NCBI GenBank assembly: GCA_035697485.1
Contig: DASSCU010000032.1
Location: forward strand, 1-64,000
Length of the DNA stretch: 64,000 nt
Direction of reading: 5' to 3'
Source: Actinomycetota bacterium
GTDB taxonomy: Bacteria; Actinomycetota; UBA4738; HRBIN12
Below, in pieces: positions 33,961 through 50,010 of the stretch (position 1 is its first letter; every line of letters starts with the position of its first letter). The translations under genes were made by a program, and so were the position numbers. A model generated the notes under the pieces. It did no database searches. It saw only the letters and a list, made by a program, of their open reading frames with translations, and was not told the DNA's origin.

Positions 33961-33978
33961 TACCTTGGACCGTACGAA

Positions 33979-34398: not shown

Positions 34399-34561
34399 TG
34401 GTTCACGCTATCAACGCCGGGCCTGGGGTCGCTACCGTCGGGAAGCCACGCGCTTACTGGACGGCTGCGCGGGTCGGGGTTGCAAGGGAGCCTCGAGTGG
34501 GCGACACCTCGCCGTGATGCGCTTGTGTGCAGCTACTTCCCTGACGGCGTGCCGGACAGGC

Positions 34562-34978: not shown

Positions 34979-35132
34979 GCCCTCCCCTGCCTGCTCAAGG
35001 CCCTACCGTCACCGAGAAGACAACACGCCCGTGACCCAACCCACCGAGCTCCTCGATTCTCTCGGCTGCCATAGGGTCGCGAATGTACCCGGAAGCCAGC
35101 GCACCGGCTGCGTACGGAGCGGGACTGGGTGG

Positions 35133-36238: not shown

Positions 36239-37507
36239 CTAAGGCGCGGCAGCGCCCAGTCCTTCGCGGTCCGGATCGAGCGCGAAGCGGATGTCCCGCT
36301 CGTCGTGCATGGCCTCAACCGTCGCGGCACGGAGCAGCCTCGCCTGCTCGTCGAGCACTGCGATTCGCTCCGGAAGCGCGACACGACGGAGATCCATCAA
36401 GGCGGCGACCAGGCGTCGCGAGACCTGGGGCGAGCCCGCGCCGGCCATCCGGATCTCGTCGAAAGCCAGATGGACGTAGTCCTCCCAGGTCATCATCTTC
36501 ACGAGCAGTCGGATCCGGCCATCCTCAGCAGGAACGCGACCGTCGGGGAACGGCCGACGCGCGAGCTGCCTGAGGACGTCGTGCAAGCGGTCGATCGCCT
36601 GCACGGCCGTCGTGGGATCCTGAAATGGCGACTCAGACAACGAGCGCTCCGCGACATCGACCAGAAGCCGCACCCCGTAGGCGACGTCCTCGTCGAGAGT
36701 CGGCTCGAGCTTCAGGCTCAACGCCGCGAAGAGCCGGTTCTCGTCCAGATGCTCGGGACGGCCGTGAACGATGAATAGCGGTCCGCCCGCGGGAACAAAC
36801 GCGCCAAGAGCCGGGACGAGCTCAAGCACGCAGTCGGCCCGTTCGGCCTCGGCGACGAGTGCATCCGTCGCGATCCTTGTCACGACGCCCGACTTTCGCG
36901 CAGCGACAACGCGTGGAGACTCCGGATCGACGGGAGGCGGCGGGCCGGCGTCTGGATATCGGCGGTCGACGAGCTTACGCGTGTCGTGACCGACGAGTTC
37001 GATCAGCGCCGAAACGCGAAGCGACTGGCCGATGTGGTGCACGTAGATCACCAAGGCCGCGATACTCGCCAGCACGAGGAGGTACGACGTCGCCACGGCG
37101 ATGCTTGGAACCTGCCCTGTGCCGTCGCCCCGGTCCACAACCTCGCGGATCGTCAGCACAGCGTGCACGAAGGTCGCGACGAAGAGCCCGATGGCGAGCT
37201 GGCTGGGCTTGTCGCGAAGGATCCGCTGCACGATCCGGGGCGAAAACTGCCCCATCGCCAGCTGGACGACGACCATCGTGATCGTCAGCACGAGCGTCGC
37301 GAGGCTCACCATCGAGACCGCGATCGTGGTCAAGACCGCGTTCGCCGAGGTCGGCCGACCGACGAGCACCTGCGAGAGCGCCTGATAGTCGAAGGCTCGG
37401 TCAAGGGTGATCGTGCCGAAGGAGATCGCCGCGCCCGCGAGGACACACATGACCGGCACGAACCAAAGACTCGACGCCACGCTGGCCGCGAACTTTCGTA
37501 ACAGCAC
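36239..37507 (-). CDS. DUF2254 membrane protein
   Basis: The 422-residue protein (GTG start) has four transmembrane helices in the first 170 residues (SSLWFVPVMCVLAGAAI, VLTTIAVSMVSLATLVLTIT, LAIGLFVATFVHAVL, YLLVLASIAALVIYVHHIGQ). The conserved FSPRIVQRILRDKPSQLAIG lies between them. A soluble domain (about 200-420) contains GALVIVHGRP-like and DVAYGVRLLVDVAERSLSESPFQDPTTAVQAIDRL segments. This is the full DUF2254 pattern, a conserved protein of unknown function. It is the last ordinary gene before the island. Confidence 0.88.
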   Translation of the reverse strand: MLLRKFAASVASSLWFVPVMCVLAGAAISFGTITLDRAFDYQALSQVLVGRPTSANAVLTTIAVSMVSLATLVLTITMVVVQLAMGQFSPRIVQRILRDKPSQLAIGLFVATFVHAVLTIREVVDRGDGTGQVPSIAVATSYLLVLASIAALVIYVHHIGQSLRVSALIELVGHDTRKLVDRRYPDAGPPPPVDPESPRVVAARKSGVVTRIATDALVAEAERADCVLELVPALGAFVPAGGPLFIVHGRPEHLDENRLFAALSLKLEPTLDEDVAYGVRLLVDVAERSLSESPFQDPTTAVQAIDRLHDVLRQLARRPFPDGRVPAEDGRIRLLVKMMTWEDYVHLAFDEIRMAGAGSPQVSRRLVAALMDLRRVALPERIAVLDEQARLLRAATVEAMHDERDIRFALDPDREGLGAAAP

Positions 37508-38255
37508 GACCTAGGGCTACCCAACTCGCCCGCTTGGCACGCATATGCTCGCGCTCGTGGGCTAGTCGAACCCGATCCCGTCGAGCGGCGGCGACGCTTG
37601 CTGCCGTCCTTCGACAGGGCTCATCACCCACGCGGACATGGATAGTTGCGCCCCGCCCGACTCCTTCATCTACTCGACGAGACCGGGGAGACCCGCCCAG
37701 GGTGCCACCACGGTCGCTGTCGTTGAAGAAACACCCGGGCCGACTCCCCCGTCGTGGGGAAACGGACCGACTCTGAGCGTCTTGCCGGCCCGCCTCCCTG
37801 CTCGGAAAGAGCAGGTCTGCGCACCTCCAGCAGCGCGGTCTTCCGCAGACTGCAGCCATAGACCTCCTGAGCTCTCGAACCGAGATCACGTGGTCGATGT
37901 TCATGGCCTCGCTCGATTTGCTGTCAACGGCGTGTCCCCGAATCATCGAGGCGGGTCACTTCCAACCGCCTCGCTCGCCATCGGACCTCACCGCTGCCCG
38001 TCAGCTGGGCGTGGTCGACGTGCAGCACCACCTCACAGCGGAAAACGGTCCCGCTCGCGATCCGGTGGCGCCATCGTCGGGAGCGGGAAGTCCAAGGTGG
38101 AGGAATGACGGGGTGGGTGCATCGACCGCCGACGGGGGGCAGGGACGCGGGCCACCCGATCCCCACCTAGTAGCAGCATGAGGCAGGGGGTATCTAAGCC
38201 CCAATCTCCTGCCTTCGGGACACGGTGGGACACGAGCAGCACGTGAGTAAAGCGC
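37508..38255. other. Region without a secure gene, flanking the island
   Basis: The 750 nt between the DUF2254 gene and the left att repeat contain only weak, mixed-frame open reading frames. A minus-strand segment reading MNIDHVISVRELRRSM is faintly HNH-like but lacks the rest of the motif. The region may hold older debris of the tRNA-proximal chromosome. In many Actinobacteria tRNA-Met, rpmG, secE and nusG follow tRNA-Thr; none of these is found here. Confidence 0.4.
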
Positions 38256-38327
38256 GTGAGCTGACGCTATCGCTTGCAGTGCAAGGAGCCGGCGGTTGGA
38301 TTCGAACCGACGACCTACCGATTACAA
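38256..38327 (+). repeat. Left attachment repeat
   Basis: The 72 bp beginning GTGAGCTGACGCTATCGC match 48593-48664 except at two positions (C/T at 38277 and T/C at 38297). The second mismatch breaks a base pair of the T-stem, as expected where the tRNA copy is not under selection. Confidence 0.9.
38287..38327 (-). other. tRNA-Thr 3'-half fragment
   Basis: The minus strand carries the discriminator base, the 3' acceptor strand, the T-arm (with one broken pair), the variable loop and the 3' side of the anticodon arm of tRNA-Thr. It stops at the anticodon. No D-arm or 5' acceptor strand follows, so it is a remnant and not a functional gene. Confidence 0.9.
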
Positions 38328-38378
38328 CCAGGCCTCGGGTAGATCCCTGTCTCGTCTACCCTCATCTACCTGCGTCGT

Positions 38379-38433
38379 CTGGTCTCGTGTGGTCTCGTCT
38401 GGTCTCCAGTTCAGACACGGTTCAGACACGGTA
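38379..38433 (+). repeat. Short tandem repeats at the left end of the island
   Basis: Three copies of a (T)GGTCTCGT-type unit (38379-38407) are followed by two adjacent copies of TTCAGACACGG (about 38410-38431). CAGACACGGTA recurs at the right end (48564-48574). Repeats shared by both ends of an element are candidates for integrase arm-type or excisionase binding sites. Confidence 0.55.
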
Positions 38434-38569
38434 TCGGGAGATAGTCAGGTGTGCTGACCAATGCTTAGCCAGCCGGGAGCGCACTGGGTTCGCCACCTGC
38501 ACAGATGTTCTGCCACCGCCTCGCGAGTGTCAGCGGTGATCGGGGCATGCACCGTCACGGTAGTTCGTG

Positions 38570-38980
38570 TCATCTACCCAACGCGATAGTGGCTTGTTCC
38601 CTACGTCGTTCCGATAGCCATGGGTGTGGTAGCCCGACGACGTGTTCGAACGTCAGCTCGCTTCGACGCACGCCACACGTACATCTGCTTCCAGTGATCC
38701 TTGAAGCCTTCGCGTTCATACGGGCCGTACACGTAGCCGACGCCGACCACATCACGGAATCGCTGCACGCATTCGAGATCGGTCATCTGAACGACAGCCT
38801 GGACGTAGGCTTGTCCTTGTGGCTTCGGGAGATCGAGCCCTCTCCCTCGAACAGGCCGGCGGCCCAGGCAACGGAATCGTCCACGGTCGGACTATTCGTA
38901 CCCGAACGACCCCAGGTGTCCTTACCTGCAGCGCGGGCTGGCGCGGCGAGTGACACGTCATCGAGATCGAGAAGTGACAT
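38570..38980 (-). pseudogene. LAGLIDADG homing-endonuclease-like gene with two frameshifts
   Basis: Starting at ATG 38980, the frame encodes a short N-terminus and then VDDSVAWAAGLFEGEGSIS, the LAGLIDADG-like helix. It stops after TSRLSFR. One base later the neighbouring frame continues with QMTDLECVQRFRDVVGVGYVYGPY and HWKQMYVWRASKRADV. Near 38640 a third frame supplies FEHVVGLPHPWLSERRREQATIALGR. Spliced together the three pieces give a continuous protein of about 136 residues of the single-LAGLIDADG type common in actinobacterial phages and elements. The first break fits loss of one C in TTCCAG; the second is near the segment encoding RADVR/TFEHV. Confidence 0.8.
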
Positions 38981-39144
38981 CTGCCCACCCGCTGTAGATA
39001 AATACAGGATGTCACTTGTCACTCGTGCAGGTAGATGGGGGTAAGCGGAGGACGGTGAAGTGACAAAGTGACACGGTGTAGGCACCCAGGAAGATGTCAC
39101 TTGAGGCGGCCAGCCACGCGCTGCGGGTTGGTTCTTGGGGAACC

Positions 39145-39510
39145 TCACGTCGCCTGATGCCTCACCCACTGGTCGTCCTCCGATGTGATGTTGAGCTGCT
39201 TGCGGGCGCGGTCGATCTGCTTGGCGTCGTAGCCCTCGCGCTGCAGTTGCTGACGGATGTCGGTCGCCGGGATGCGGTCGCGTGAACCGAACTCGCCTTT
39301 GATCCGGATGCGGAGCAGTTCGGCCTTCGACTGCTTGGCCTTCTCCACCGTCTGCAGTTCTCGCCGGCGGCCTTGCGAGTCGCCATCGTTCATGAACAGA
39401 CGCTCGGTGGTCATGTCCTCGACTTCACCGATCAGTTCGAGATAGCCGACGTCTTCGAAGAAGTGCCCGTCGATCGTGAGGTCTCGTCCCCGCCGGCGGA
39501 ACTGCAACGC
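39145..39510 (-). pseudogene. C-terminal fragment of an unidentified element protein
   Basis: About 110 codons ending at 39145 look coding: RRRGRDLTIDGHFFEDVGYLEL, a charged linker, then KAELLRIRIKGEFGSRDRIPATDIRQQLQREGYDAKQIDRARKQLNI, a winged-helix-like end. The style resembles the C-terminus of primase/helicase or AAA ATPase proteins of integrative elements, where a helicase core is followed by a small winged helix. The frame upstream of about 39510 becomes antisense to the integrase fragment, so the N-terminal part is missing. Confidence 0.5.
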
Positions 39511-40183
39511 GGGGGACTTGCGTGAGTGTGACCCTCCTGCAGCGGGCGGGGCGGCCGACGAGGACGAGCGTCCGGTGTGGGAACCCGACGTCGTGGAAGC
39601 CTTCCAGGCGTTCTCAGATCCCGAGAAGGCCACTACCGAGTTCGAGTTCATGGCCCGGACGGCGATGAACCTGGACTTCGAACTCGGCCTGAGAACCGGC
39701 GAGCTCGTCGCGCTGCAGTTCTCAGATCGTGTCGGCAACGTCGTGAAGGTGCGCCGAGCCCGTTCAATGATAGGCGGCCGCAAGGACATCGTTGAGAAGA
39801 AGCCGAAGACCGGCAGCGGCAAGCGCGACGTTGGCATGAGCAGCCGCGCCCAGGCCCTGTGGGACGCCCTACCGGCTCGTCAGAGTGTCCCGTCCATCGG
39901 CGGGTACCTGTTCGTGGACGAAGCCGGCCAGCCGGTGCACCCGTCCCGGATCATCGCCGAGTTCGAACGGCTAAGGGACGGGTTCCTGGCCGAGAACCCG
40001 CACGTTGCGAGGATTACGTTCCGCGACGTGCGGTCGTGTGCCATCACCCGGTGGGTCCGCAGGGGTGTCGATGCCCCGATGGTCAAGACGATGGCCGGCC
40101 ACAAGTCCTACGCGTTCACGATCGACCGGTACTTCAAGGCGACGGCAGCCGACACCGAGGCCGCCGCTGCGAAGTTGGGCTAG
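39476..40183 (+). CDS. Tyrosine recombinase (integrase), N-terminally truncated
   Basis: The recognisable sequence starts near residue 33 (RPVWEPDVVEAFQAFSD) and covers only the catalytic domain. It shows Arg in LDFELGLRTGELVALQFSD, an RDVRSCAITRWVRRGVD box in place of HxLRH, GHKS and the nucleophile Tyr in FTIDRYFK. Intact integrases of this kind have about 380 residues with SAM-like and arm-binding N-terminal domains; these are absent. The start codon is uncertain. The first catalytic His appears replaced by Arg. It lies 1.9 kb inside the left att site. Activity is unlikely. Confidence 0.8.
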   Translation: MRSRPRRRNCNAGDLRECDPPAAGGAADEDERPVWEPDVVEAFQAFSDPEKATTEFEFMARTAMNLDFELGLRTGELVALQFSDRVGNVVKVRRARSMIGGRKDIVEKKPKTGSGKRDVGMSSRAQALWDALPARQSVPSIGGYLFVDEAGQPVHPSRIIAEFERLRDGFLAENPHVARITFRDVRSCAITRWVRRGVDAPMVKTMAGHKSYAFTIDRYFKATAADTEAAAAKLG

Positions 40184-40386
40184 CCCCCCACGCTGATGGA
40201 TTGATCTCTGCACGAAGGCCGCCGTGTGATTGATGCCCTCGGTGAACCCGCTGCCCGCGAGCTGCTTGACGCGGTCACCCGCAGTGACGCCCGCAAGCCA
40301 GCCCGTGGGGGAAACGTGGCGATCCTTTCAGACAAGCATCCAGCATTCATCTACACATTCGGGCTGTCTCATGCGTACATGCAGCG

Positions 40387-40917
40387 ATGGAGACACAGCC
40401 AGGTCAGGTGAAGCTGGTCCGCGACGCCGTGGACGCAGAGCAGGCATCGTTCGAGGAATTCTTCGCTGCCGCATGGCCTCGACTCTTCCGGGCTCTTCTC
40501 CTTCTTACCGGAAGTGCTCACGAGGCCGAAGATGTCGCCCAGGAAGCATTCCTGAGCCTCCTGGAGCGCTGGGATAGGCTCGATCACGGGACTGATCTCG
40601 AGGGCTATCTCTTTCGGACGGCGCTGAACAGCTATCGCAGCCTCTACCGACGATCAAGGCTTGCGGCCAAGCGGGTCCTCGCTCCCGGGCAGGCCGGGAC
40701 CGATCCTTTCGAGCAGGTTTCCGAACGCGAGAGCGCGGTTCGTCTCCTCCTCGGGCTTACTCCGCGTCAACGTGCGGCGATCGTTCTCACCGGGATCGAG
40801 GGGTTCGACTACCGACAGACGGGGGCCATGCTCGGGGTGAAGGAGACCACCGTCAGAACGCTCGTCTCACAAGCCAGAGCTCGGTTCCCGAAGGAAACGG
40901 ACGGCAGCGATGAATGA
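40387..40917 (+). CDS. ECF-type RNA polymerase sigma factor
   Basis: The 176-residue protein has region 2 (about 20-90; FEEFFAAAWPRLFRALLLLTGSAHEAEDVAQEAFLSLLERW) and region 4 (about 115-172; LTPRQRAAIVLTGIEGFDYRQTGAMLGVKETTVRTLVSQARA). This is the SigE/sigma-70 ECF layout. It shares blocks (LTGSAHEAED, LLERWDRLD, EGYLFRTALNSYRS) with the factor at 55697-56278. The downstream membrane protein gene overlaps it by 8 nt and probably encodes its anti-sigma or sensor partner. It is cargo within the tRNA-Thr island. Confidence 0.92.
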   Translation: METQPGQVKLVRDAVDAEQASFEEFFAAAWPRLFRALLLLTGSAHEAEDVAQEAFLSLLERWDRLDHGTDLEGYLFRTALNSYRSLYRRSRLAAKRVLAPGQAGTDPFEQVSERESAVRLLLGLTPRQRAAIVLTGIEGFDYRQTGAMLGVKETTVRTLVSQARARFPKETDGSDE

Positions 40918-41824
40918 CCAGGAGATCCTAGACAGGGCCGAACGGGCAGCCAGGAGCGTCGTCGTGCCGGACGGTCGCTTCGAGGAACTGCTGCGCCGTC
41001 GCGACCGCAAGCGCCGGAACCAGCGCATCGCGGCGGGGGTCGTCGGGATCACGGTCTTCGTGGCGGCGATCTGGATCGTGACGACGGGACTGCCCGATCA
41101 GAGCCAGACGGAGGTCGTTCCGGGAGGGGCGGGTACCGGGTCGAGCGAGACCGAGCCGCCGTCGGGCGTCACCGGCGAGACGACCGGCACGTGGCCGTGT
41201 TGGGATTCTCAGGACGGACCGCCGCCGTGGGTGTGCTTCGGACCGCTCGAAGAGGGGACGTACAGGTCGCAGCGCTTCGACCCCGCCCTCACCTTCACCG
41301 TCCCGGCCGGATGGAACAACCCGTGGGACACGCGTGGCTCGTTCTATCTGTGGACGCCGGGATGGTCGGACGGGTGGGAGGATCCGGAGGATCCGGACAG
41401 TCCAGGCCTCTACGCCGATTACCCGGGAGTGAGGCTCTCCCGCGACGCCCGCGCCGTCCGGAGTTGCTCCGACGCCGTCGTCGCCGGTGCCGGCACGTCC
41501 GCGCTCGAGCTCGCGACGTGGGTGAGCGACCATCCGGGTATCGCAACGGATGGGCCGTCGCCCGTGGAGATCGGCGGGCTCGCGGGATACCAGCTCGACG
41601 TGTCGATCGCGGAGACGTGGCACAAGAGGTGTTCCGGGCGGTTTGTGAGCGTGGAGCCGCTCGACGGGGCCTTCCTCGTCGAAGGGATATGGTCGAAGTA
41701 CGCCACCTCGCGTCTGATCTTGCTCGATCTGCCGGACGGTGGGAGCGTCCTGATCGATATCGACGGGACGCAGGTGGACGCCGCGATGCCCGTCGTGCGC
41801 TCGTTCGAGTTCGGCCTGAGCTGA
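40910..41824 (+). CDS. Membrane protein, probable anti-sigma/sensor partner
   Basis: The 304-residue protein has a short cytoplasmic part (1-38) with Arg-rich RRRDRKRRNQR, a transmembrane helix (about 40-60), a Thr/Ser/Gly linker and a secreted domain (about 85-300). That domain carries PAGWNNPWDTRGSFYLW, a CSDAVV...LATWVSDHPGI stretch and EIGGLAGYQLDVSI. It resembles the extracytoplasmic domain of the protein at 57069-58682 (PAPGWERF, PCADLL, LVRAVATAPGT, VGGRPADRVVLTV). No classical zinc-binding anti-sigma motif (HxxxCxxC) is present. Coupling to the sigma gene by an 8-nt overlap is the main evidence for its role. Confidence 0.7.
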   Translation: MNDQEILDRAERAARSVVVPDGRFEELLRRRDRKRRNQRIAAGVVGITVFVAAIWIVTTGLPDQSQTEVVPGGAGTGSSETEPPSGVTGETTGTWPCWDSQDGPPPWVCFGPLEEGTYRSQRFDPALTFTVPAGWNNPWDTRGSFYLWTPGWSDGWEDPEDPDSPGLYADYPGVRLSRDARAVRSCSDAVVAGAGTSALELATWVSDHPGIATDGPSPVEIGGLAGYQLDVSIAETWHKRCSGRFVSVEPLDGAFLVEGIWSKYATSRLILLDLPDGGSVLIDIDGTQVDAAMPVVRSFEFGLS

Positions 41825-41836
41825 GGTTGCCGGTCT

Positions 41837-41943
41837 CGTCTGGCGGCCGATCGCGCCGCGCGCATCGGCAGGCTCTACGCCCGCGCCGACGGGGAGCGGC
41901 TGGCCGAGCTGCTGATGGACCTTGAGGGCAATGAGGGCCGATG
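41837..41943 (+). pseudogene. Possible C-terminal gene remnant
   Basis: Directly after the sensor gene a frame with no start reads RLAADRAARIGRLYARADGERLAELLMDLEGNEGR and stops at 41943. Composition and helical pattern are protein-like. It looks like the end of a gene whose front was deleted. No family recognised. Confidence 0.3.
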
Positions 41944-41948
41944 ACCCG

Positions 41949-42131
41949 CTACCGGGGCCACCCGCACAGGTCCACGATCCGCTCGTACAGGTCGTTCGTG
42001 ATGTGCAGCTCCCCCGCTTCGAGGGAGCGGTACTCGGCCAGGGTCAAGCCCAGGCGTCCCGCCATCTGCACCTCTCGAAACCCCATCCGCTCCCGATCTC
42101 GTGGGAGGTGCTGAACGATGATCGGGAGCAT
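41949..42131 (-). CDS. Small XRE/Cro-C1-like HTH protein
   Basis: The 60-residue protein is essentially one helix-turn-helix domain: RMGFREVQMAGRLGLTLAEYRSLEAGELHITNDLYERIVDLCGW. This fits the Cro/C1 fold with recognition helix LTLAEYRSLEAG. Such a protein would repress or activate element genes. No clear ribosome site is seen, and the frame is short, so it could be partly degraded at the N-terminus. Confidence 0.6.
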   Translation of the reverse strand: MLPIIVQHLPRDRERMGFREVQMAGRLGLTLAEYRSLEAGELHITNDLYERIVDLCGWPR

Positions 42132-42338
42132 GGCTCAGGCTAGCCCGTCACTCACACACGAGCTGGGTTACACAACGCCGACGTGAGGACTAACCTCTAG
42201 GGACCGACGCAGCTCCGAATCGGTCGGACCCTACAACCCGCAGCAGCCGGGGTCCGCGACCTAGGACACCCGTCGGGACGTAGAGGCCCCTGGGTTCTCC
42301 GTCGCTCGGGGGTCCCTGCGTGTCTCGACCAATCCAGG

Positions 42339-42485
42339 CTCGCCCTGCGCATCATCGACATCGCCCCGATCCTCGACGTGACCACCAACGCGTGCGCCAG
42401 ATCGTCGCCCAGCGTGATGACCCCCGAGCCGGCGGAGGTGATCGGACGGCATCGGTTGTGGCGACCCATGGGCGTGGAGCGGTAG
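42339..42485 (+). pseudogene. AlpA/excisionase-like DNA-binding protein remnant
   Basis: One frame gives RIIDIAPILDVT, then, after non-coding-looking residues, EPAEVIGRHRLWRPMGVER-stop. The middle, HQRVRQIVAQRDDP, is in the +1 frame. Joined, they match the small helix-turn-helix proteins of the AlpA/excisionase type (EIA-LGVT-QRV-QIV ... FPEP ... GR-W--V). Two compensating frameshifts and no start codon mark it as broken. It would be the lost excisionase or regulator of the island. Confidence 0.55.
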
Positions 42486-42523
42486 CTCGATGCGAGCCTC
42501 GAGTATGGGTGCCTGAGAAGTGA

Positions 42524-43405
42524 TCAGACAGGCAGGATGACGTCCTCGCACCCGAGCTGATTGTCGAGGGTGTCGAGGTAACACGTGTCGTTACCGCCGC
42601 CCCCGAAGACCGTGTCGTTGCCGTCACCCCCGTCCTGCGCCCTGATCACGTCGCCGCCGCTCCCACCCAGGAGCGTGTCGTTGTCAGGTCCCCCAATGAT
42701 TCGGTCCCTGCCGCCGCCCCCGTGCACGAAGTCGTTCTTGCCCTGGGCTTTGATCCGGTCGTTCCCTTCGAAGCCGCAGATCGAGTTGGCCTTGGCGCTT
42801 CCTACGATGCGATCACGCTCGTTCGTTCCCTTGATCCTGCAGGCTGGAGAGACGCGGATGTCGTCCACGGTCTCGATCAGATTCAGGGGCACACCGGCGC
42901 GAGCGAAGACGAGTTCGACCCGACGGAAGGCAGTGCCGGCGACCCCGATGGTCTGGTCGGGAAGGTCATTGGCGTTCATCTCGACGCTTGCTGAATCGAC
43001 CTCGACCGCTCCCTTGAAGGCGCTGAGCGCGGCGACATCACCGGCCTGGACGACGGACGGATCGTCGTTCCCGAACGTGATGGAGATCTTCTTGATCGGC
43101 ACGTCGAAACTGATGATGAGTCGGCTGCCGTCGTCAGGTTGCACAGCGAGTCCCTGACCGATCACTTCCGGGATCGCTCCGTACACCTGGAGGCCCTCCC
43201 CGACCGAGTCAGAGAAGTGCGCGATGCTGCTGTCGATGCTCGTGAACCCGTTCGATTTCGCGCCCGATGTGTCCCGCTCGAAGTTCAGCGGAGGTGCTTT
43301 CACGGAGCTCGGGAGTGCTTGGGCAACGCCGGGAAGCACGAGCAAGACCGCCACGAGCGGGATGAGCACGAGCCTCGGGGTGGACTTGGGTCGAATCCTC
43401 GTCAT
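42524..43405 (-). CDS. Secreted protein with RTX-like calcium-binding repeats
   Basis: The protein is 293 residues from ATG 43405, with GAGGGGGAA upstream. A signal peptide (about 1-30, ending AQA-L) precedes a beta-rich domain (about 35-190; DVPIKKISITFGNDDPSVV). The C-terminus (about 195-285) holds four or five glycine/aspartate nonapeptide-like repeats (GFEGNDRIKAQ, GGGGRDRIIGGPDNDTLLGGSGGDVIRAQ, GGGGNDTC). These repeats fold as calcium beta-rolls after secretion. Two terminal Cys may form a disulfide. The role is unknown; it is island cargo. Confidence 0.85.
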   Translation of the reverse strand: MTRIRPKSTPRLVLIPLVAVLLVLPGVAQALPSSVKAPPLNFERDTSGAKSNGFTSIDSSIAHFSDSVGEGLQVYGAIPEVIGQGLAVQPDDGSRLIISFDVPIKKISITFGNDDPSVVQAGDVAALSAFKGAVEVDSASVEMNANDLPDQTIGVAGTAFRRVELVFARAGVPLNLIETVDDIRVSPACRIKGTNERDRIVGSAKANSICGFEGNDRIKAQGKNDFVHGGGGRDRIIGGPDNDTLLGGSGGDVIRAQDGGDGNDTVFGGGGNDTCYLDTLDNQLGCEDVILPV

Positions 43406-43532
43406 CTCTGGTTCCCCCTCTGGTTGAGACACGCCAACACCGGTCAGCTTGGCCCTGGCCAGCGACGCGGTCAAACCAGGGCTTCGTCGCCGGGCGGGCG
43501 GCGCGGGGGCGGGAGCCGGGGTGGCCGCTTTC

Positions 43533-43844
43533 TCAACTTGTCGAGGGGGGCGCCTCCGAGGTGAGGCCATCGGCGAGTCGAAGGACTGACGGTGAGATTC
43601 CCACCTGCCGCAGGGACGATCGGATCGCGGCTCGACCCTGTTTCGACGCCGCCGGCTCGTCGCTGGCCTCGATGGCGACCTCGATGACGATCCCCTTGAG
43701 GGAGTCGCCATCGAGATCGGCGAACACGGTCGTCCCGACGACGTTAGGCACCCGGATCAGAGTCCGCTCGAGAGGCCATTCGATCACCCTGATCCCTCTG
43801 AGCGGTGGGTCGGCGAGGTAGGCGCGCCGCACCAAGTAGATCAC
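43533..43844 (-). CDS. Hypothetical protein
   Basis: The 103-residue, mostly beta protein has strands IYLVRRAYLADPPLRGIRVIEW, TLIRVPNVVGTTVFADLDGD and KGIVIEVAIEA, followed by a helical C-terminus. It has no signal peptide and no recognisable motif. Codon third positions are GC-rich, which supports coding. It lies 127 nt upstream of the RTX-like gene on the same strand. Confidence 0.5.
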   Translation of the reverse strand: MIYLVRRAYLADPPLRGIRVIEWPLERTLIRVPNVVGTTVFADLDGDSLKGIVIEVAIEASDEPAASKQGRAAIRSSLRQVGISPSVLRLADGLTSEAPPSTS

Positions 43845-44311
43845 GGGCTGACGGTATAGATGGGGCGGCGCTTGGGGCTATGGGTCGTTCGTCCCGCGCT
43901 CAGTGGCCTAATGCGTTGCACGTAATTCGCGACATGGAGAGTCCAGGACTCGACTGGGCACTTACTCCCCGAGTGCTTCCGGATCCGGTGTTGCCGTGTC
44001 CTCTTCGCCGCCCTCGGGCAGGCCGTCTCAATGGGCTCCTGGGAGGAATCTCGTCCGGTCCCTACGGGTCGGGCAACCTGTCACTTCGGGGATCTGGGTT
44101 TCCATGCGGCGCCATCGAGGTCATCGACAGGCCGAGCTAGTCAACCGGCGTCGGCTGGCAAGGATCGGATGCATCGACCGAGGGTTTCGGATCGTCTTCA
44201 GCGGCAGGCGCGTTTGGCAAGGCGGCGTGCCATAGAGTTTGCCAATGTACCTAGATGAGCACGGGCCGGTGCGTTGCCCACCTCGAAGAGATGAGCTTTC
44301 CCCTTCTTGGC
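43845..44311. other. Gene-free stretch in the island
   Basis: About 467 nt contain only short, mixed-frame open reading frames with no family pattern and lower GC at third positions than neighbouring genes. It may be debris from earlier insertions and deletions. Confidence 0.4.
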
Positions 44312-44806
44312 CTACCCCGGCGTACCTTGGTTTCGAAGTCGCTCGTGTAGACGGTCGAAGCGAGCTTCGTAGATCCGGAACATGTCCGTCTCGGTAGTAG
44401 TCCCATCGTCGTAGGCGGGTGAGACCAGCGGCCGAGCTTGCTGGACTTCGATTACCACGATCGCTTTCACCCGTTCGAGGAGCGTCGTGACCCCCTCCTC
44501 GCGCATTCGCCTGAGACCGTCCGAGAAGCCGTCCGTCCCGGGCTCATGGACCACGGCCGGTCCCTTGAAGCGATAACCCTTCCGAACGAACGGGTCCACC
44601 ACGTTGACCTCAACAAGGGACCCTCGACGGATGTTCGCAACCGTCCGGGGCGAGCTGATGTCCGCAAAGAAGAGGTGATCGTCGTCCCACACACGTGTGG
44701 TCCCTTTCGGCGACAGGTTCGGCGACCCATCCTCACAAACGGTCGCGTGGAACCCGAGTCCTTGTTCGCGGACGACGCGCTTCATGTCATCGGTGAGGAT
44801 CGCCAT
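44312..44806 (-). CDS. PPOX-family (pyridoxamine 5'-phosphate oxidase-like) protein
   Basis: The 164-residue protein begins MAILTDDMKRVVREQGLGFHATVCEDGSPNLSPKGTTRVWDDDHLFFADI, followed by RTVANIRRGSLVEVNVVDPF and KGYRFKGPAVV. This is the split-barrel flavin-binding pattern of small PPOX proteins. It is distinct from the shorter PPOX protein at 17764-18189. It lies about 110 nt downstream of the SRPBCC gene on the same strand, within the island. Substrate unknown. Confidence 0.85.
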   Translation of the reverse strand: MAILTDDMKRVVREQGLGFHATVCEDGSPNLSPKGTTRVWDDDHLFFADISSPRTVANIRRGSLVEVNVVDPFVRKGYRFKGPAVVHEPGTDGFSDGLRRMREEGVTTLLERVKAIVVIEVQQARPLVSPAYDDGTTTETDMFRIYEARFDRLHERLRNQGTPG

Positions 44807-44917
44807 GGCAACCTCCGTCCCTCACCATGCACGATAGACCCCAAGGGACAGCGCATCGCGGTGCCCGAGGGTTCAGGAATGTACCTAGGGGCCGACCCTC
44901 GATCGAGGCTGCGTCGC

Positions 44918-45358
44918 CTACTCGTCTGCTGGCGCGATCTCCGTCTCGATCAGGCGCTTCACGTTGTCGACGCTCCGCTGCATCATCCGCGTGAGGAACT
45001 CGAGCTTCTCGGGATCGTCCATCCCCTCGATCCGGGTCGTGACCGTAACGAGGGTCCGCGCCGGTCCCCGCGCCTCGAACGTGGCTCGCCCCTGGGCGTC
45101 CATGTTCCGGTCGTGGATCGAGACGGCTAAGGCGCGTTCTGGATCGAACTCCACGACCTCCATCTCGCCTTCCACCGGCGTGTCCCACCGGGTGTTCACG
45201 CGCCGGATCCTCGTGCCGACCGTGATCGGGCCGTCCGACAACTTCTCGAGGCGCATATCGGGATCCCAGCGCGGGTGGTTGTGGACGTGCTCCACGGCAT
45301 AGAAGCGCCAGACGTCGGCGACCGGTCGATCGACCTCCGTAGAAACCTGGACTTCCAC
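44918..45358 (-). CDS. SRPBCC (polyketide cyclase/START-like) protein
   Basis: The 146-residue protein starts at GTG 45358, which has AGGAGG 5 nt upstream. It opens VEVQVSTEVDRPVADVWRFYAVEHVHNHPRWD and continues with VGTRIRRVNTRW, EVVEFDPERALAVSI and a long C-terminal helix (EKLEFLTRMMQRSVDNVKRLIE). This is the helix-grip SRPBCC fold that binds hydrophobic ligands. Ligand unknown. Island cargo. Confidence 0.85.
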   Translation of the reverse strand: MEVQVSTEVDRPVADVWRFYAVEHVHNHPRWDPDMRLEKLSDGPITVGTRIRRVNTRWDTPVEGEMEVVEFDPERALAVSIHDRNMDAQGRATFEARGPARTLVTVTTRIEGMDDPEKLEFLTRMMQRSVDNVKRLIETEIAPADE

Positions 45359-45514
45359 GACCGCCTCCTGATGGAGAAGACACACCCTTCGTCCGGCCAG
45401 GCTTCAGGGTATATCCCTCGCCGAAAATCGGACCACCGGCGAGGTGCGGTCGCGCAGGACAGGGTGGGGTGACCGACGCCCGATCCGACGTAGCGCCCTG
45501 CCCGGCTCCCACAT

Positions 45515-45727
45515 CTACTCGACAGGGGTCAGGACGGGGACGGTCTCCGCTGCATCGATGCCGATCACTTCGAAGCCGAGCGCCATCTCCGAGTGGAAGC
45601 TCAGCGGGCCGACACACCGGATGGCCAGGGTGACGAGTCTCGTGTCCCCGGGCTCGAAGGCGGCGTATTCGTCTGCGAGGTACCAGGAGATCGTCCTAAT
45701 GACGGCCCTGTCGTAACCGTGGGGCAC
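45515..45727 (-). CDS. Hypothetical protein overlapping the end of the WhiB-like gene
   Basis: The frame beginning at GTG 45727 reads VPHGYDRAVIRTISWYLADE, AAFEPGDTRLVTLAIRCVG and FEVIGIDAAETVPVLTPVE, 70 residues with good beta-strand character. It overlaps the 3' end of the WhiB-like frame by 127 nt in another phase. Either this is a separate overlapping gene, or the WhiB-like gene has lost its natural stop through a frameshift. No family recognised. Confidence 0.45.
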   Translation of the reverse strand: MPHGYDRAVIRTISWYLADEYAAFEPGDTRLVTLAIRCVGPLSFHSEMALGFEVIGIDAAETVPVLTPVE

Positions 45728-46185
45728 TCGTTCGGAGCCAGGATGAGCGGGACCACTTGATTCAGGAAGCATTCTTCGATGACCTCCGCCTTCTCGGTGA
45801 TGGACAAGTCCCGGCGGTGTAGCTCCCGCCGCTGACGTTCGGTACTGCCGCCGGCGACCCCCGACGGGAGGGGACGGCGCTGGCCCTCGATCTCGAAGAT
45901 GAGCGTATCGAGCGCACATTTACGGCGAACGGGGCAGCGCGCGCAATATCGGAGAGCTCGAGCTTCTGCAGGGGTGCCACCGATGGGTCGGCCCCGCTGA
46001 CCACTCGTACGGTCGGGATAGAAGGTCGAAACGTGCTGCCCGATGCATGCAGCCTGCCCGATCCACTCGACCCGAGGCCTGACGAGTAGCGGATCTGGAC
46101 GCTGTTTCGGATGGCATGGACAGGCGCACCACTCCTTGTCGCAGCGATGGTGCGCCGCCCTTGAACACTCCCCGGTCTGGGCCAT
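45601..46185 (-). CDS. WhiB-like Fe-S protein with Cys/His-rich N-terminal extension
   Basis: ATG 46185 is chosen for its GGAAGGT site. Residues 1-30 hold an extra metal-binding-like cluster (CSRAAHHRCDKEWCACPCH). The Wbl core follows: WIGQAACIGQHVSTFYPD, then ALRYCARCPVRRKCA, which supplies four cluster Cys spaced C...CxxCxxxxxC. GVAGG stands in place of the usual GVWGG turn, followed by a basic segment. WhiB proteins bind a 4Fe-4S cluster and act with the principal sigma factor. The last 45 residues are low complexity and antisense-like, overlapping another frame. It is encoded in the mobile island, as in many actinobacterial phages. Confidence 0.8.
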   Translation of the reverse strand: MAQTGECSRAAHHRCDKEWCACPCHPKQRPDPLLVRPRVEWIGQAACIGQHVSTFYPDRTSGQRGRPIGGTPAEARALRYCARCPVRRKCALDTLIFEIEGQRRPLPSGVAGGSTERQRRELHRRDLSITEKAEVIEECFLNQVVPLILAPNECPTVTTGPSLGRSPGTSQTNTPPSSPGTRDSSPWPSGVSAR

Positions 46186-46430
46186 GTTCTGACCTTCCGG
46201 GAGCATGTAATGGCGCCCCATACGGGAGGCGCGGCCCCGGATGCCCACCAGGGCCGCTTCGACTCCTTCTTTCGGTGGCCGGGGCCACCCTCCCGGCCCA
46301 CCCTGTTGGGTGAGGGGCGGGAAACCGACGACCTCTCGGCCGATCTCCCGCCCCTCTTGTCGTCGGAAGCGAGTGGAACCCACCCACCTCCTTCCTTCGC
46401 TCGTCATTCGCCATCTGACGAGGCTCTGTA

Positions 46431-46467
46431 AGCCCCGTAGAAGCCTCGAAAAAGGCTCTGTGGGGCT
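46431..46467 (-). terminator. Imperfect hairpin after the zinc-ribbon gene
   Basis: Starting at the stop codon on the minus strand, AGCCCC pairs with GGGGCT and AGCC with GGCT around a loop containing TTTTTCGA. It could weaken transcription between the 46467 gene and the WhiB-like gene. The rest of the 46186-46466 gap shows only a GC-rich leader. Confidence 0.35.
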
Positions 46468-46826
46468 CAGGACCCTGCCGCGAGTCTCTCGGCCCCCTGC
46501 GGGACCGGGAGGGCGGTTTTCGCGGCCTCCTGGCGGGCTTTTTCGGCCTCCCGATAGCAGCGGCGGCAGTATCCGTAGCCCGTTTTCTTGAGTCCCCACT
46601 CGCGTGGGCCGTGTCCACGGTCGCACTCGGACTTCCGGCCGGGCGGGAGGGTCGAAACGACCTCCTTGCGGTCGGCGAAGGCGACACAGACCGGGCAGGA
46701 CAGGCGCTGGTCGAAGTCCACCATCACGTGATCGTCCTTCGGGTGGGTCCAGGCCTTGTCGCCCTGACGATGGAACACCGTGCGCGAGCCGTCGCTGCCC
46801 ATCTCGATGAGGGTCGAGGCGCTCAC
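46467..46826 (-). CDS. Zinc-finger hypothetical protein of the island operon
   Basis: The protein is 119 residues from GTG 46826, which overlaps the stop of the upstream gene as GTGA. The N-terminal part includes TVFHRQGDKAWTHPKDDHVMVDFD. Two Cys pairs follow, LSCPVCVAF (about 44-47) and CRRCYREAEKARQ (87-90), with a Cys/His group SECDRGHGPREWG between them. This should form one or two zinc-binding sites. It resembles small proteins of actinobacterial phages in style but I do not recognise a family. Confidence 0.6.
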   Translation of the reverse strand: MSASTLIEMGSDGSRTVFHRQGDKAWTHPKDDHVMVDFDQRLSCPVCVAFADRKEVVSTLPPGRKSECDRGHGPREWGLKKTGYGYCRRCYREAEKARQEAAKTALPVPQGAERLAAGS

Positions 46827-47755
46827 CAGGACGTGATCTCGACCGTGCCGGGCGCGACCGGGACGAGGTTCTGATCGGCCTCGATGACGGCACGGGCGCG
46901 GGCCAACTCGCCGGCCGTGGGCGGCGGGTTCTTCTTCACGTACTCGGTGATCTCCGCGACGTTCTTGGACGCGGTTCTCAGTTCCTCGACATCGAGGAAT
47001 CCCGACCGGTTGGGATCGTCCAGCATCGCCTTGAGCCGGCGCTCCTCGGTCGTCCACCGCTCGAGGGCTTGCTGCCGGGGCTTGAGCGCGGTCTTGGTCT
47101 CGCGGTCGCGGGTGAACACGGCGTTCTGCTTGTCGGACTTCCTCCAACCCATCTCATCGAGGATCGGGCCGTGGTCGGCTTCGGCTGCGGCGAGATCCCT
47201 GCGTGCCTTCTGTGCGGCGAAGGAGTTGTCCTCGATGCCTTGCTCGCGGGCCTGGGCGTCGTGCTTGGCAACCGCCTCCCGCAGTGGGGCGAGGATGGCC
47301 TCACCCTCGGCGGCGAGGTCGAGGAGCTGATCGTCGGTGGTCTTCGTGAACGGCAGACGCTTCTCAGCGACCTCGATCTGACTCTTGAGGTCGGCGACTC
47401 TGGCGGCAGCCTCGACGCGGGCGGTGCGCAGCGGGTCGAGGTCCCTCGCGGTGTCGGGGTGGACACGGGCGAGCGTCTCGGGCCTCTCGGCTGCTGCGAG
47501 GGCGCACTCGGCGACCTTCAGATCCTTCTTCAGCGCGGCGAGCTTGCCTTGAGGACTGGCGGCATATCGTGCAGCCTCTCGCCGGCGCCGCTCGGCCTCG
47601 GCCTTCTTGGTGGTCTGGATTCGCTTCTCGCGCTCGGCGACGATCTCGGAGTGGAAGTCGGACCAAGCGTCCTCATCCTGCTCCACGAGCCCGACAGCCA
47701 TTTCTAGATGATCCTCTAGCGAGTCGTCGTCGTACTCGGCCCAATCTGTGCTCAC
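46823..47755 (-). CDS. Coiled-coil protein of the island operon
   Basis: The 310-residue protein starts at GTG 47755, overlapping the upstream stop (GTGA). It is highly charged and helical: an acidic N-terminus (WAEYDDDSLEDHLEMAVGLVEQDEDAW), then long Ala/Glu/Arg/Lys coiled coils (about 40-270, e.g. EKRIQTTKKAEAERRRREAARYAAS) and a short C-terminal segment. No enzymatic motif is seen. Its place between phage-like genes suggests a structural or DNA-associated role in the element, but this is a guess. Confidence 0.65.
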   Translation of the reverse strand: MSTDWAEYDDDSLEDHLEMAVGLVEQDEDAWSDFHSEIVAEREKRIQTTKKAEAERRRREAARYAASPQGKLAALKKDLKVAECALAAAERPETLARVHPDTARDLDPLRTARVEAAARVADLKSQIEVAEKRLPFTKTTDDQLLDLAAEGEAILAPLREAVAKHDAQAREQGIEDNSFAAQKARRDLAAAEADHGPILDEMGWRKSDKQNAVFTRDRETKTALKPRQQALERWTTEERRLKAMLDDPNRSGFLDVEELRTASKNVAEITEYVKKNPPPTAGELARARAVIEADQNLVPVAPGTVEITSW

Positions 47756-48008
47756 GTCGCGTTCCTTTCTGCTTGATCGGCCCGGGCCTTGAGGGTGTCC
47801 AACTCGGGTAGGTGACGCGGCTCCATGCCGCGCATTTCCATCTCGTCTGTCATCTCACGCAGCGCCCGGTAGGTGGGCTCCAGGGCCTTGCGGGCGATCT
47901 TGCGGCCCGGGCTGGGCCGGGGGCTGCGTAGGTGCGGAGGGTCTCGTAGAAGGCCGTGAACGCCCGCTCGTGCATGGCCCGGATCTGCTCGTCGGTGAAC
48001 AACGTCAT
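47752..48008 (-). pseudogene. Frameshifted small helical protein of the island operon
   Basis: ATG 48008 (overlapping the upstream stop as ATGA) opens MTLFTDEQIRAMHERAFTAF YETLRTYAAPGP in one frame, which then degenerates. From about 47925 the next frame supplies RKIARKALEPTYRALREMTDE, PRHLPELDTLKARADQAE and a stop at 47752, itself overlapping the next gene. Together they give one protein of about 85 residues. The switch lies in a C/G-rich run (GCCCCCGGCCCAGCCCGGGCC), so a one-base indel, a read error or programmed frameshifting are all possible. Confidence 0.6.
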
Positions 48009-48538
48009 CGGGGCCCCCAATAGGAGATCGGTTCGCGGCGCTGCCTCGGGTACTTCCCGGGGGGCGGCGGTACAGGCGGCAGAGAATCGTGAATGCCATA
48101 AGACTGAAGCTCATTGATCAGATCGATGACGGCCTGCCTATTGGCGTTGTACGCGCCGGTGTTGTTCTCCCTCGTCCGCGGACTCCCCCTCCATGGTCCC
48201 GGGCCCAACGATTCGCAGACATCGACGGCGCGCTGCAGCCGCTCGCGCAGGAACTTGATCCGCTCCGGGGCAGGGGGAGCGTCGGCTTCGATGGCGTAGG
48301 GCTCAAGCTCGCCGTCCTCATCGACGGTCCCGTAGCGAGCGCGATGCTCTGCGGCAGCAAAAGCCGGGGAGCGCTTGCGCCAGACCCTCGGGGTGTTGGG
48401 TTCGATGCCGGCCGCCTCTGCAGCGGCTTTGACGCCGGTACCGGCCGCCCCCTGCCCCCCCGGGGTGCCCCCGATCCCGCCCGGCGGTACGGACAGAGAC
48501 GCGGGCGGGAGGAGGGGAGTAGTAGTGCTACCTATCCC
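48005..48538 (-). CDS. Phage-like small protein (possible small terminase subunit), start unclear
   Basis: The minus-strand frame is open from 48538 to the stop at 48005. The coding-like part begins near GTGVKAAAEAAGIEPNTPRVWRKRS, an HTH-like helix pair, then RARYGTVDEDGELEPYA, PPAPERIKFLRERLQRAVD and a proline-rich tail. No ATG, GTG or TTG occurs before TTG 48208, so the true start is lost or lies in another frame beyond the G-run at about 48460. The pattern recalls small terminase or homeodomain-like proteins of phages. It heads the minus-strand operon of the island and overlaps the next gene by ATGA. Confidence 0.5.
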   Translation of the reverse strand, partial: GIGSTTTPLLPPASLSVPPGGIGGTPGGQGAAGTGVKAAAEAAGIEPNTPRVWRKRSPAFAAAEHRARYGTVDEDGELEPYAIEADAPPAPERIKFLRERLQRAVDVCESLGPGPWRGSPRTRENNTGAYNANRQAVIDLINELQSYGIHDSLPPVPPPPGKYPRQRREPISYWGPR

Positions 48539-48592
48539 CTACCCCCTACCTATTAGACTCACTCAGACACGGTAGCCCTGATCACGAGGTGG

Positions 48593-48664
48593 GTGAGCTG
48601 ACGCTATCGCTTGTAGTGCAAGGAGCCGGCGGTCGGATTCGAACCGACGACCTACCGATTACAA
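48593..48664 (+). repeat. Right attachment repeat
   Basis: This is the 72-bp partner of 38256-38327. Its last 41 bp (48624-48664) are the 3' half of tRNA-Thr, the usual crossover region for tRNA-targeting integrases; the first 31 bp lie beyond the tRNA 3' end. Confidence 0.92.
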
Positions 48665-48697
48665 GTCGGTTGCGCTACCGGACTGCGCCACGCCGGC
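48624..48697 (-). tRNA. tRNA-Thr (anticodon TGT)
   Basis: The 74-nt gene folds into a full cloverleaf: acceptor GCCGGCG/CGCCGGC, a D-arm with GCGCAGTCCGGTAGCGC, anticodon arm ACCGA-CTTGTAA-TCGGT with anticodon TGT, variable loop AGGTC, and T-arm GTCGG-TTCGAAT-CCGAC. The discriminator is T, and CCA is not encoded. It lies 12 nt after rlmB on the same strand and serves as the insertion site of the island. Confidence 0.95.
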
Positions 48698-48709: not shown

Positions 48710-49513
48710 CTACCCCGCCGGGTTCGAGGCTCGGCGTTCGCGCGGCACGACGTACGCGTAGAGCACGGCCGCCAGCGCCGCCGCTGCATTGAGCGAACCG
48801 ACCCTCCCGCGCATCGGCAGGGAGAGCAGCTGGTCGCAGCGCTCGCGGGTGAGCCTCGCCATGCCCTCCCCTTCGCTGCCGATCACGACGGCCACCCGCC
48901 CTTCCGGACAGTCCTCCTCATAGACGGTGACGTCGGCGGTCTGGTCGAGCCCGACGACCCAGAAGCCTGCGTCCTGCAGCCGCTCGATCGCTCGAGCGAC
49001 GTTTGCGACCCGAGCGTGCGGCAGGTGAACGAGCGCTCCCGCCGACGCGCGCACGGCGGCCGGCGTGACCTCGGCGGCGCGACGGGTCCGGGTCACCAGC
49101 ATCGCGGCACCGGCGGCCTCTGCCGACCGAGCCGCCGCCCCGAGGTTCTGCGGGTCGGTGATGCCGTCGAGGACGACGACGAGCGCGTCCTCCTCGAATG
49201 GAAAGGCCGCGAGGTCGCGCTCGCCCAAGGCCTCCGAAGCCTCGGGGGCGATCCTCGCGACCACTCCCTGATGCTCGTCGGCCAAGGCATCGAGCGTGGC
49301 CCGGGGCACCGTACGCACGGACACGTCGTCGGCGTGCGCCTGCTCGAGCAGCGACCGCATGCCCTGCGTCACCTTCGGTGAGGACACGATCAACACCTCG
49401 GAGACCCGGCCGGCGCGCAGCGCCTCCGTGACGGCTCGACGTCCCGAGATCACCTGTGAGGTCCCCGGGCCCGACGAACGGCGTCGTCTCGCCCGATCGC
49501 GTTCGCGGCTCAT
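48710..49513 (-). CDS. rlmB: TrmH/RlmB-type 23S rRNA 2'-O-ribose methyltransferase
   Basis: The protein is 267 residues from ATG 49513. An N-terminal L30e-like substrate-binding part (about 15-95; ISGRRAVTEALRAGRVSEVLI) precedes the SPOUT knot domain. This has LDGITDPQNLGAAARSAEAAGA, VIGSEGEGMARLTRERCD and SLNAAAALAAVLY, the three motifs that bind SAM in the trefoil knot. RlmB methylates G2251 of 23S rRNA in E. coli. ATGA overlap with ispF. The synteny ispD-ispF-(cysS)-rlmB is standard; cysS is absent here. Confidence 0.93.
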   Translation of the reverse strand: MSRERDRARRRRSSGPGTSQVISGRRAVTEALRAGRVSEVLIVSSPKVTQGMRSLLEQAHADDVSVRTVPRATLDALADEHQGVVARIAPEASEALGERDLAAFPFEEDALVVVLDGITDPQNLGAAARSAEAAGAAMLVTRTRRAAEVTPAAVRASAGALVHLPHARVANVARAIERLQDAGFWVVGLDQTADVTVYEEDCPEGRVAVVIGSEGEGMARLTRERCDQLLSLPMRGRVGSLNAAAALAAVLYAYVVPRERRASNPAG

Positions 49514-50010
49514 GCGATGACCGTGACGGCCATGCAGCCGACGCCGTCGCCGACGAGTCCGAGGCCCTCGGGCCTCGTCGCCTTCACCGACATCGCCTCG
49601 AGCGGGATCGCGAGGACTTCGGCAAGGGCGGAGCGCAGCTCGTCGCGGCGAGGCGCGACCGCAGGTCGCTCGCAGATCACCGTCGCATCGCTGGATCGCA
49701 CCGAGTAGCCGGCGCCGCGAACGAGCTCGAGGGTGTCCTCCAGCAACGCCAGCCCCGCCATGCCGGCGATCGACGGGTCGTCTTCGGGGAAGTGGAGCCC
49801 CACGTCGCCGAGCGCGGCGGCGCCCAGCAGCGCATCGGCGATCGCATGACAGACGACGTCGCCGTCGGAATGACCGGCGAGCCCCGGCACGCCGTCGAAG
49901 GTGACCCCGCCCAGCGAAAGAGGACGGTCGTCCGTCGCCCACGGATGCGCGTCGAACCCGAGGCCGACGCGCGGCACGGCCTCAGGCACCGGTGCCGCCC
50001 ATGCGCGCAT
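49510..50010 (-). CDS. ispF: 2-C-methyl-D-erythritol 2,4-cyclodiphosphate synthase
   Basis: The 166-residue protein has the zinc ligands in GLGFDAHPW, AGHSDGDVVCHAIADALLGAA and GDVGLHFPEDDP, and the substrate loop VKATRPEGLGLVGDGVG. It cyclises CDP-ME-2-phosphate in the MEP isoprenoid pathway. The ATG at 50010 overlaps the end of ispD by 29 nt; GTG codons slightly downstream are alternative starts. Its stop overlaps rlmB by ATGA. Confidence 0.96.
   Translation of the reverse strand: MRAWAAPVPEAVPRVGLGFDAHPWATDDRPLSLGGVTFDGVPGLAGHSDGDVVCHAIADALLGAAALGDVGLHFPEDDPSIAGMAGLALLEDTLELVRGAGYSVRSSDATVICERPAVAPRRDELRSALAEVLAIPLEAMSVKATRPEGLGLVGDGVGCMAVTVIA

Follow-up and report, generated by a model that had tools for sequence, protein, structure and literature searches.

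The islands of the Islander catalogue (PMC4383910) are marked by an intact tRNA gene at one end and a displaced 3′ fragment of it, in the same orientation, at the other, and the anticodon loop, one of the two common sublocations in that catalogue, is used by 2083 of its 3919 islands. We analyzed a 64-kb stretch of an Actinomycetota genome (contig DASSCU010000032.1, positions 1–64,000; hereafter the window), in which an earlier note had described a tyrosine-integrase element that entered tRNA-Thr(UGU) and has since decayed. Our results support that description. The segment 38,256–48,664 is very probably a decayed integrative element that was inserted as a circle through a tyrosine-recombinase crossover in the anticodon loop of tRNA-Thr(UGU), and one of many such elements in this genome, in which at least five other tRNA genes hold similar insertions. 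Its ends are those of an Islander island. Islander, however, demands an integrase gene for each island, whereas the gene was truncated here and undetected in the modules at tRNA-Val; tandems of at least three appear only 4 times in the Islander table, whereas the tRNA-Val array described below seems to hold about eight units.

Several other systems were compared. The fGI1 cassettes of ‘Ca. Actinomarinales’ (PMC7771536) and the additive islands of Methylophilaceae (PMC10872708) share with this locus a gene content that varies between relatives. The loci studied here have arms with phased repeats (at Val, Leu, and Thr) and repeats that run from the anticodon loop to the tRNA 3′ end, whereas arm sites are not described for those cassettes in the portions of the two sources available to us. 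As in the ssrA islands of Dehalococcoides (PMC3146451), multiple islands lie in tandem downstream of one RNA gene; 15 of those islands lack an integration module, and their authors suggest that they are cis-mobilizable elements (CIMEs). The Dehalococcoides islands use a serine recombinase, ssrA, and a 20-bp repeat, whereas the sites here are of the tyrosine type and lie at several tRNA genes. The tandem accretion of CIMEs related to ICESt1 (Pavlovic 2004, cited in PMC3146451) also produces integrase-less units bounded by attachment (att) sites; the arrays here differ in that they yielded no functional integrative conjugative element. Tycheposons, as cited in PMC10872708 and PMC11389934, likewise carry cargo, sit at tRNA genes, and have a tyrosine recombinase, whereas most units here had no detected recombinase. 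Finally, the integron-derived gene rows known as CALIN (PMC11389934) are similar in being integrase-free series of one- or two-gene packets, all of which end in a shared type of recombination site; tRNA halves with arms, and not folded attC sites, play that part here, and an integron integrase was not found in the rows. The parallels (tRNA cassettes, ssrA islands, CIMEs, and CALINs) are known already, and this genome differs in two respects: its arms have a defined architecture, and its Val row without integrases is long.

The tRNA-Thr(UGU) repeat and its empty site

The attachment gene and the two repeat copies are as follows.

48622–48697, minus strand: intact tRNA-Thr(UGU), the attachment gene (ARAGORN and Rfam)
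48593–48664, minus strand: right attachment copy, the tRNA-Thr 3′ half from the anticodon loop plus 25 bp past its end
38256–38327, minus strand: left attachment copy, a displaced 3′ half with a T-stem pair broken (38297) and the other mismatch at 38277

The tRNA-Thr(TGT) gene was the sole tRNA gene that ARAGORN found in the window, and Rfam concurred (72.9 bits). The two 72-bp copies were direct repeats with 97% identity that flanked 10.3 kb and differed at two positions (38277/48614 and 38297/48634). The repeat extends from the base 5′ of the anticodon (48661–48663) to the tRNA 3′ end and approximately 25 bp further. The right copy completes the tRNA, whereas the left copy retains only the displaced 3′ half, beginning at the anticodon loop; read from the sequence, its change at 38297 converts a T-stem C-G pair to C-A. 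The core around the anticodon loop was identical in both copies. The earlier note had described this layout, with its two mismatches, complete right tRNA, and broken left stem, and all of it was confirmed. In addition, the repeat occurred exactly twice in the 3.41-Mb genome (a draft of 64 contigs, 95.6% complete, with 2.5% contamination) and not at many unrelated loci, which the note had regarded as a sign against insertion. A tyrosine recombinase that integrates at an anticodon-loop site would be expected to leave this layout.

The note had also proposed looking for an empty site with one copy of the repeat, and such a site was found in G001, a genome of the same genus. G001 keeps the 18.2–32.0-kb part of the window in the same order up to the P450 gene, the end of which (L033:9992) is followed after 56 bp by tRNA-Thr (10048–10123) and then by rlmB. 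In other members of the family, different genes of this neighborhood come after tRNA-Thr, and no second Thr half was found in the retrieved tRNA-Thr loci of relatives. The empty site in G001 and the lack of a second half in these loci indicate that the insertion is specific to this lineage among the genomes compared. The locus thus combines an intact tRNA gene at one end, a displaced 3′ fragment with matching orientation at the opposite end, and an empty site in G001 and other family members, as a tRNA-gene island should. A chance segmental duplication or a misassembly could also place two copies of a sequence on one contig, and the assembly is a draft. We consider the probability of this negligible: the anticodon loop, where the repeat begins, is a classical integration point, arm repeats stand at both ends, relatives carry the empty site, and the same pattern recurs at other tRNA genes of the genome.

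Arm-type sites at the attachment ends

Short phased repeats were found beside both copies.

38375–38406, plus strand: three 12-bp direct repeats, TCGTCTGGTCTC, with a spacing of 10 bp; likely integrase arm-type sites
38409–38430, plus strand: two 11-bp direct repeats, GTTCAGACACG, with a spacing of 11 bp; likely outer arm-type sites
48563–48572, plus strand: a third TCAGACACGG, located 50 bp beyond the 3′ end of the tRNA; likely arm-type site of the other end

The TCGTCTGGTCTC and GTTCAGACACG repeats adjoin the left 72-bp copy. The 10-mer TCAGACACGG occurred in the 64-kb window, both strands counted, only at 38411 and 38422 in the left end and at 48563. Integrases of the lambda family bind arm sites that consist of helically phased repeats on both sides, and the phased repeats at both ends of the element are likely to be such sites. 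The element at tRNA-Leu(UAG) had the same design, with pairs of TTGCTCAC 10–11 bp apart exactly at its three ends (C6: 50298/50309, 61791/61802, and 64232/64242) and 1 further occurrence in the stretch of C6 examined.

Gene content and decay of the element

The genes between the two repeat copies are listed below.

38601–39044, minus strand: endonuclease-like gene, frameshifted near 38,790
39148–39525, minus strand: gene fragment that faces the integrase remnant head-to-head; the 5′ part is missing from each
39524–40183, plus strand: tyrosine integrase remnant, catalytic half only (Pfam PF00589, 6.5e-10)
40387–40917, plus strand: ECF sigma factor, intact
40910–41824, plus strand: membrane partner of the sigma factor, anti-sigma-like by position, intact
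41949–42343, minus strand: small HTH_31 gene with a conserved 210-bp leader, a dispersed repeat
42524–43408, minus strand: secreted protein with RTX nonapeptide repeats
44312–44806, minus strand: protein with a PNPOx-like flavin-binding domain
44918–45385, minus strand: SRPBCC (polyketide cyclase-like) protein, 88% DNA identity to G007
45601–46302, minus strand: WhiB-like regulator
46470–46835, minus strand: small cysteine-rich protein, weakly HNH-like
46823–47755, minus strand: 310-aa coiled-coil-like protein
47752–48020, minus strand: frameshifted operon gene
48008–48520, minus strand: terminase-small-subunit-like helix-turn-helix (HTH) remnant (best match a terminase small subunit PHROG, 5e-4)

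The integrase retained the R, GH, and Y motifs, its HxxR box read RDVR, and it lacked approximately 220 N-terminal residues relative to a homologue in G023. The break that the earlier note had seen in this gene is therefore real, and the locus is a decayed island and not one with a complete integrase gene. Because the integrase and the divergent fragment both lack their 5′ parts near 39,525, the data suggest that the N-terminus of the integrase and the start of its neighbor were lost in one internal deletion. Of the other genes called broken, the operon gene had a visible frameshift at 47.75–48.02 kb. The “LAGLIDADG-like” gene was frameshifted as claimed (~38.79 kb), and its label derives from a single match of 29 residues to a PHROG named HNH endonuclease (7e-5) and from an AGLFEGEGSI-type motif. 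The “AlpA-like” gene was broken in that no start codon was found, whereas no AlpA model matched it and its weak resemblance was to terminase small subunits. The ECF sigma factor and its partner and the RTX, PNPOx-like, SRPBCC, and WhiB genes were intact, and a search for defense genes with PADLOC found none.

The earlier note expected an intact form of the element in related genomes, and none was found in 27 genomes of the order. The integrase matched phage and plasmid proteins at below 35% identity and proteins in the genomes of the order at 31% at best. Pattern scans of public collections, which detect close relatives only, gave no close relative, with one 38% local match among species genomes and none in IMG/VR. 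Likewise, the 310-aa coiled-coil-like protein had no relative in IMG/VR, in the class, or in the 27 genomes.

The element might be the remnant of a phage or phage satellite and not plasmid-like, with the integrase, small-terminase-like, WhiB, and endonuclease genes left over and its structural genes lost or never present. This is a distinct possibility, although not the reading that we favor. The small-terminase match stands next to the right end, the WhiB protein matches phage WhiB families, and the integrase matches phage integrases, including those of mycobacteriophages at 27% identity. These phage matches were weak and short, however, and the 38 open frames of both strands contained no match to a portal, capsid, tail, or large terminase gene, nor to conjugation genes; of the structural and packaging genes of a prophage, only the weak small-terminase match was seen. 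An origin as a degenerate actinomycete integrative and conjugative element (AICE) or as an integrated plasmid is improbable. The tRNA site, the tyrosine integrase, and a divergent gene fragment at a possible replication-gene position fit such an origin, but no FtsK-type translocase, replication initiator, relaxase, or GntR regulator was present among the 38 open frames, and of the FtsK-type translocase, replication initiator, int, and xis that define an AICE, only the integrase remnant was found. The fragment at 39.15–39.53 kb, for which a resemblance to the C-terminus of a helicase-primase is a lead only, had no match in phages, plasmids, NCBIfam, or PDB. Of the tRNA site, tyrosine recombinase, and replication core that tycheposons combine with cargo, the tRNA site and a recombinase remnant were present and no replication gene was recognizable, with no tycheposon-specific models used. 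In composition the element resembles a CIME, being bounded by att sites and without working recombination and transfer genes.

The cargo genes were closer to those of other genomes than their surroundings were. The sigma partner gene shared 82% DNA identity with a gene of G003 and the SRPBCC gene 88% with G007, compared with 67% for the rlmB region, and for three genes, including one from the left flank described below, the values were 82–93% compared with 67–74%. These identities, far above that of the rlmB region, indicate that the cargo moved horizontally.

DNA to the left of the repeat

The extent given in the earlier note, 10.3 kb between the repeats, is correct for the element itself, whereas the lineage-specific DNA absent from G001 amounts to 16.6 kb (32,032–48,617), i.e., an extra 6.2 kb on the left.

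30808–32031, plus strand: cytochrome P450-like gene of the left flank, which G001 keeps beside tRNA-Thr
32032–38255: further DNA specific to this lineage, to the left of the repeat and missing in G001, encoding LamG, SHOCT, three VOC proteins, and DUF2254
33979–34398, minus strand: VOC protein
48710–49942, minus strand: rlmB-like methyltransferase, right flank, conserved in relatives

The GC content of 32.0–48.6 kb was approximately 65%, compared with approximately 70% in the surroundings. The VOC gene at 33979–34398 shared 93% DNA identity with G001 (C237), compared with 74% in the rlmB region, and part of it (98% over 209 bp) was also present on contig C38, which carries tRNA-Ala(GGC) fragments. 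These comparisons indicate that the left 6.2 kb holds mobile cargo as well. A search of 32.0–38.2 kb for a third, eroded Thr half gave a score not above those of shuffled sequences. A relative of the LamG gene (68% DNA identity) lies in G006 (L188, C104, 6393–7896), 0.85 kb from tRNA-Arg(ACG).

Other tRNA genes of the genome

We searched for tRNA halves around the tRNA genes of the genome, in approximately 1 Mb of sequence; in a single pass over the whole genome for every tRNA half, only 40 of 84 candidates received a score, and that pass did not serve as a census. At least seven tRNA genes had copies of their 3′ half, most of which began at or near the anticodon loop, and arm sites were recognizable at three of them. 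Besides those of Thr(UGU), the copies that are not themselves tRNA genes included those of Gly(GCC) (49/49 nt, 8.2 kb distant), Leu(UAG) (55/55 nt, 2.6 kb distant, and a second with 92%, 14 kb distant), Thr(GGU) (1 kb distant), and Met (4.8 kb distant), many copies of Val(UAC), and two tRNA-Ala(GGC) 3′ fragments on the small contig C38 (L186, 231–260 and 2922–2965).

Parts of the element (41.85–42.91 and 43.52–44.11 kb) recurred elsewhere in the genome. Among the loci at which the element or its left flank recurred, 8 of 17 lay within 5 kb of a tRNA gene, compared with 9.6% of the genome (binomial p = 8e-5; some of the matches are short). Copies of the small HTH gene (41949–42343) were present on C58, C51, C11, C10, C29, and C6, often near tRNA genes, and the 3′ part of the RTX-protein gene was repeated on C11 with 89–94% identity. 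The 210-bp leader of the HTH gene was considered as a structured RNA and rejected: it belonged to no Rfam family, covariation was unsupported in four copies (term +0.5), and its only sub-threshold Rfam match, mir-598, was taken as chance.

The genome contained four Phage_integrase genes: two XerC/D-like genes (the label is our own reading), one beside a tRNA-Pro gene at the end of contig C19, and the remnant in the window. The C19 gene (6071–7060) is cut by the contig end and adjoins tRNA-Pro(TGG), the 5′ half of which, and not the 3′ half, is copied at C10:13884–13922. A further decayed integrase piece (C11:81008–81244; ~42% identity over 81 residues to that of the window) lies 1.2 kb from tRNA-Asn. 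A degenerate tRNA (33.7 bits) that lies 15.5 kb upstream of tRNA-Met contains a copy of the tRNA-Met 5′ half (C11:97879–97953 and C11:113434–113509), and the DNA directly after the tRNA-Met 3′ end is one of the dispersed repeats of the element. In G001, pieces of the dispersed repeats of the window (C101, L174; 8715–8908 and 10023–10122) lie less than 2 kb from a tRNA-Val gene; this tRNA had no 3′-half copies there.

The tRNA-Val(UAC) array

The longest series of halves was found at tRNA-Val(UAC). On C11 (L124, C11:134901–145383), the tRNA gene (137193–137268) is followed by halves at 140525 and 144999, and C57 (L159/L164) carries six more, at 20311, 16609, 13109, 9184, 6688, and 4236. All of the halves have one orientation, the units measure 2.5–4.4 kb, and each half is preceded by a conserved arm of ~125 bp. 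The full phased repeats (a GCATAACA pair and a GGyACTC triplet) were present in 7 of the 8 arms; the arm of the last, oldest-looking copy was partly deleted. Because the end of C11 and the start of C57 both lie inside what is apparently one cyclase/beta-propeller gene, we read the two contigs as one array of about eight units. Leu had two units, and Thr(UGU), with a single unit, does not form a tandem array of this kind.

Unit 1: Mem_trans carrier and ECF sigma pair
Unit 2: TPR-cyclase
Unit 3: the split cyclase/propeller gene
Unit 4: a paralogue of the split cyclase/propeller gene
Unit 5: LuxR-ATPase
Unit 6: cyclase-ATPase
Unit 7: histidine kinase
Unit 8: PHO4 transporter with PhoU_div

Most open frames of these units were intact, and none of the four Phage_integrase genes of the genome lay in them. 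Shorter forms were present in relatives. G007 had two Val units (cyclase-ATPase and ECF sigma pair), and Val halves were also present in G002, with a hydrolase-cyclase, and in G004, with PAP2 proteins, all with the same polarity; the Val halves of G018 shared this polarity and were more diverged. An arm of the GCATAACA type was recognizable in G007, G002, and G004. These halves and arms indicate that the arrangement is a feature of the group and not of one assembly.

Proposed mechanism of insertion

We propose that a circle carrying an arm and a tRNA half would recombine with the tRNA gene at its anticodon loop. In regard to tRNA-Thr, the 3′-half copy of the element would have rebuilt the tRNA at the right end and displaced the original 3′ half to the left end. 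In regard to tRNA-Val, each new unit would rebuild the tRNA and push the older units outward, which would give a tandem array. Because most units have no detected integrase, the mechanism requires either an integrase acting in trans or the loss by each unit of its own; the integrase-less units were probably inserted in trans and are perhaps still excisable. The element in the window is the least reduced unit seen, in that it retains a recognizable piece of the integrase.

The earlier note regarded the element as fixed because of its broken genes. That conclusion is not warranted: the tRNA core and the arm-type repeats persist at both ends, which could be served in trans. That the element is in fact still mobile, as a CIME whose ends are served by the integrase of another element, nevertheless seems rather unlikely. 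The two copies do not differ in the core around the anticodon loop, their arm repeats remain intact, and the genome contains a second integrase beside tRNA-Pro on C19 and other elements. The two mismatches between the copies and the broken genes, however, indicate long residence, and of the only four Phage_integrase genes, two are XerC/D-like and one is the remnant itself.

Four points weigh against insertion of a circle at tRNA-Thr followed by decay as one case of a general process. The contigs C11 and C57 do not overlap, and the single Val array is our reading of them. The left 6.2 kb has no third attachment copy, and the proposed mechanism does not account for how this DNA arose. The frameshifts and missing integrases could partly be effects of the draft 64-contig assembly. 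Moreover, an intact relative that would show the ancestral element was not among the genomes of the order.

A more specific proposal is tentative. The Val arrays of the order might be an integron-like capture system, in which small integrase-less circles, each with one ~125-bp arm and one tRNA-Val 3′ half, would be inserted serially behind the tRNA by a single integrase in trans; their cargo would be regulatory genes in intact form (cyclases, ECF sigma pairs, LuxR-ATPases, and a histidine kinase), and the element in the window would belong to the same population at another tRNA.

Significance

The element itself is a case of ordinary decay at a tRNA gene, and its setting is what matters; the larger fact, that it is one of many such insertions in the genome, is not visible from the window alone. 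The arm sequences allow us to ask which integrase serves the units and whether different tRNA genes share helpers. The Val row, together with the shorter forms in related genera, is a testable system for how recombinase-less cargo accumulates behind tRNA genes.

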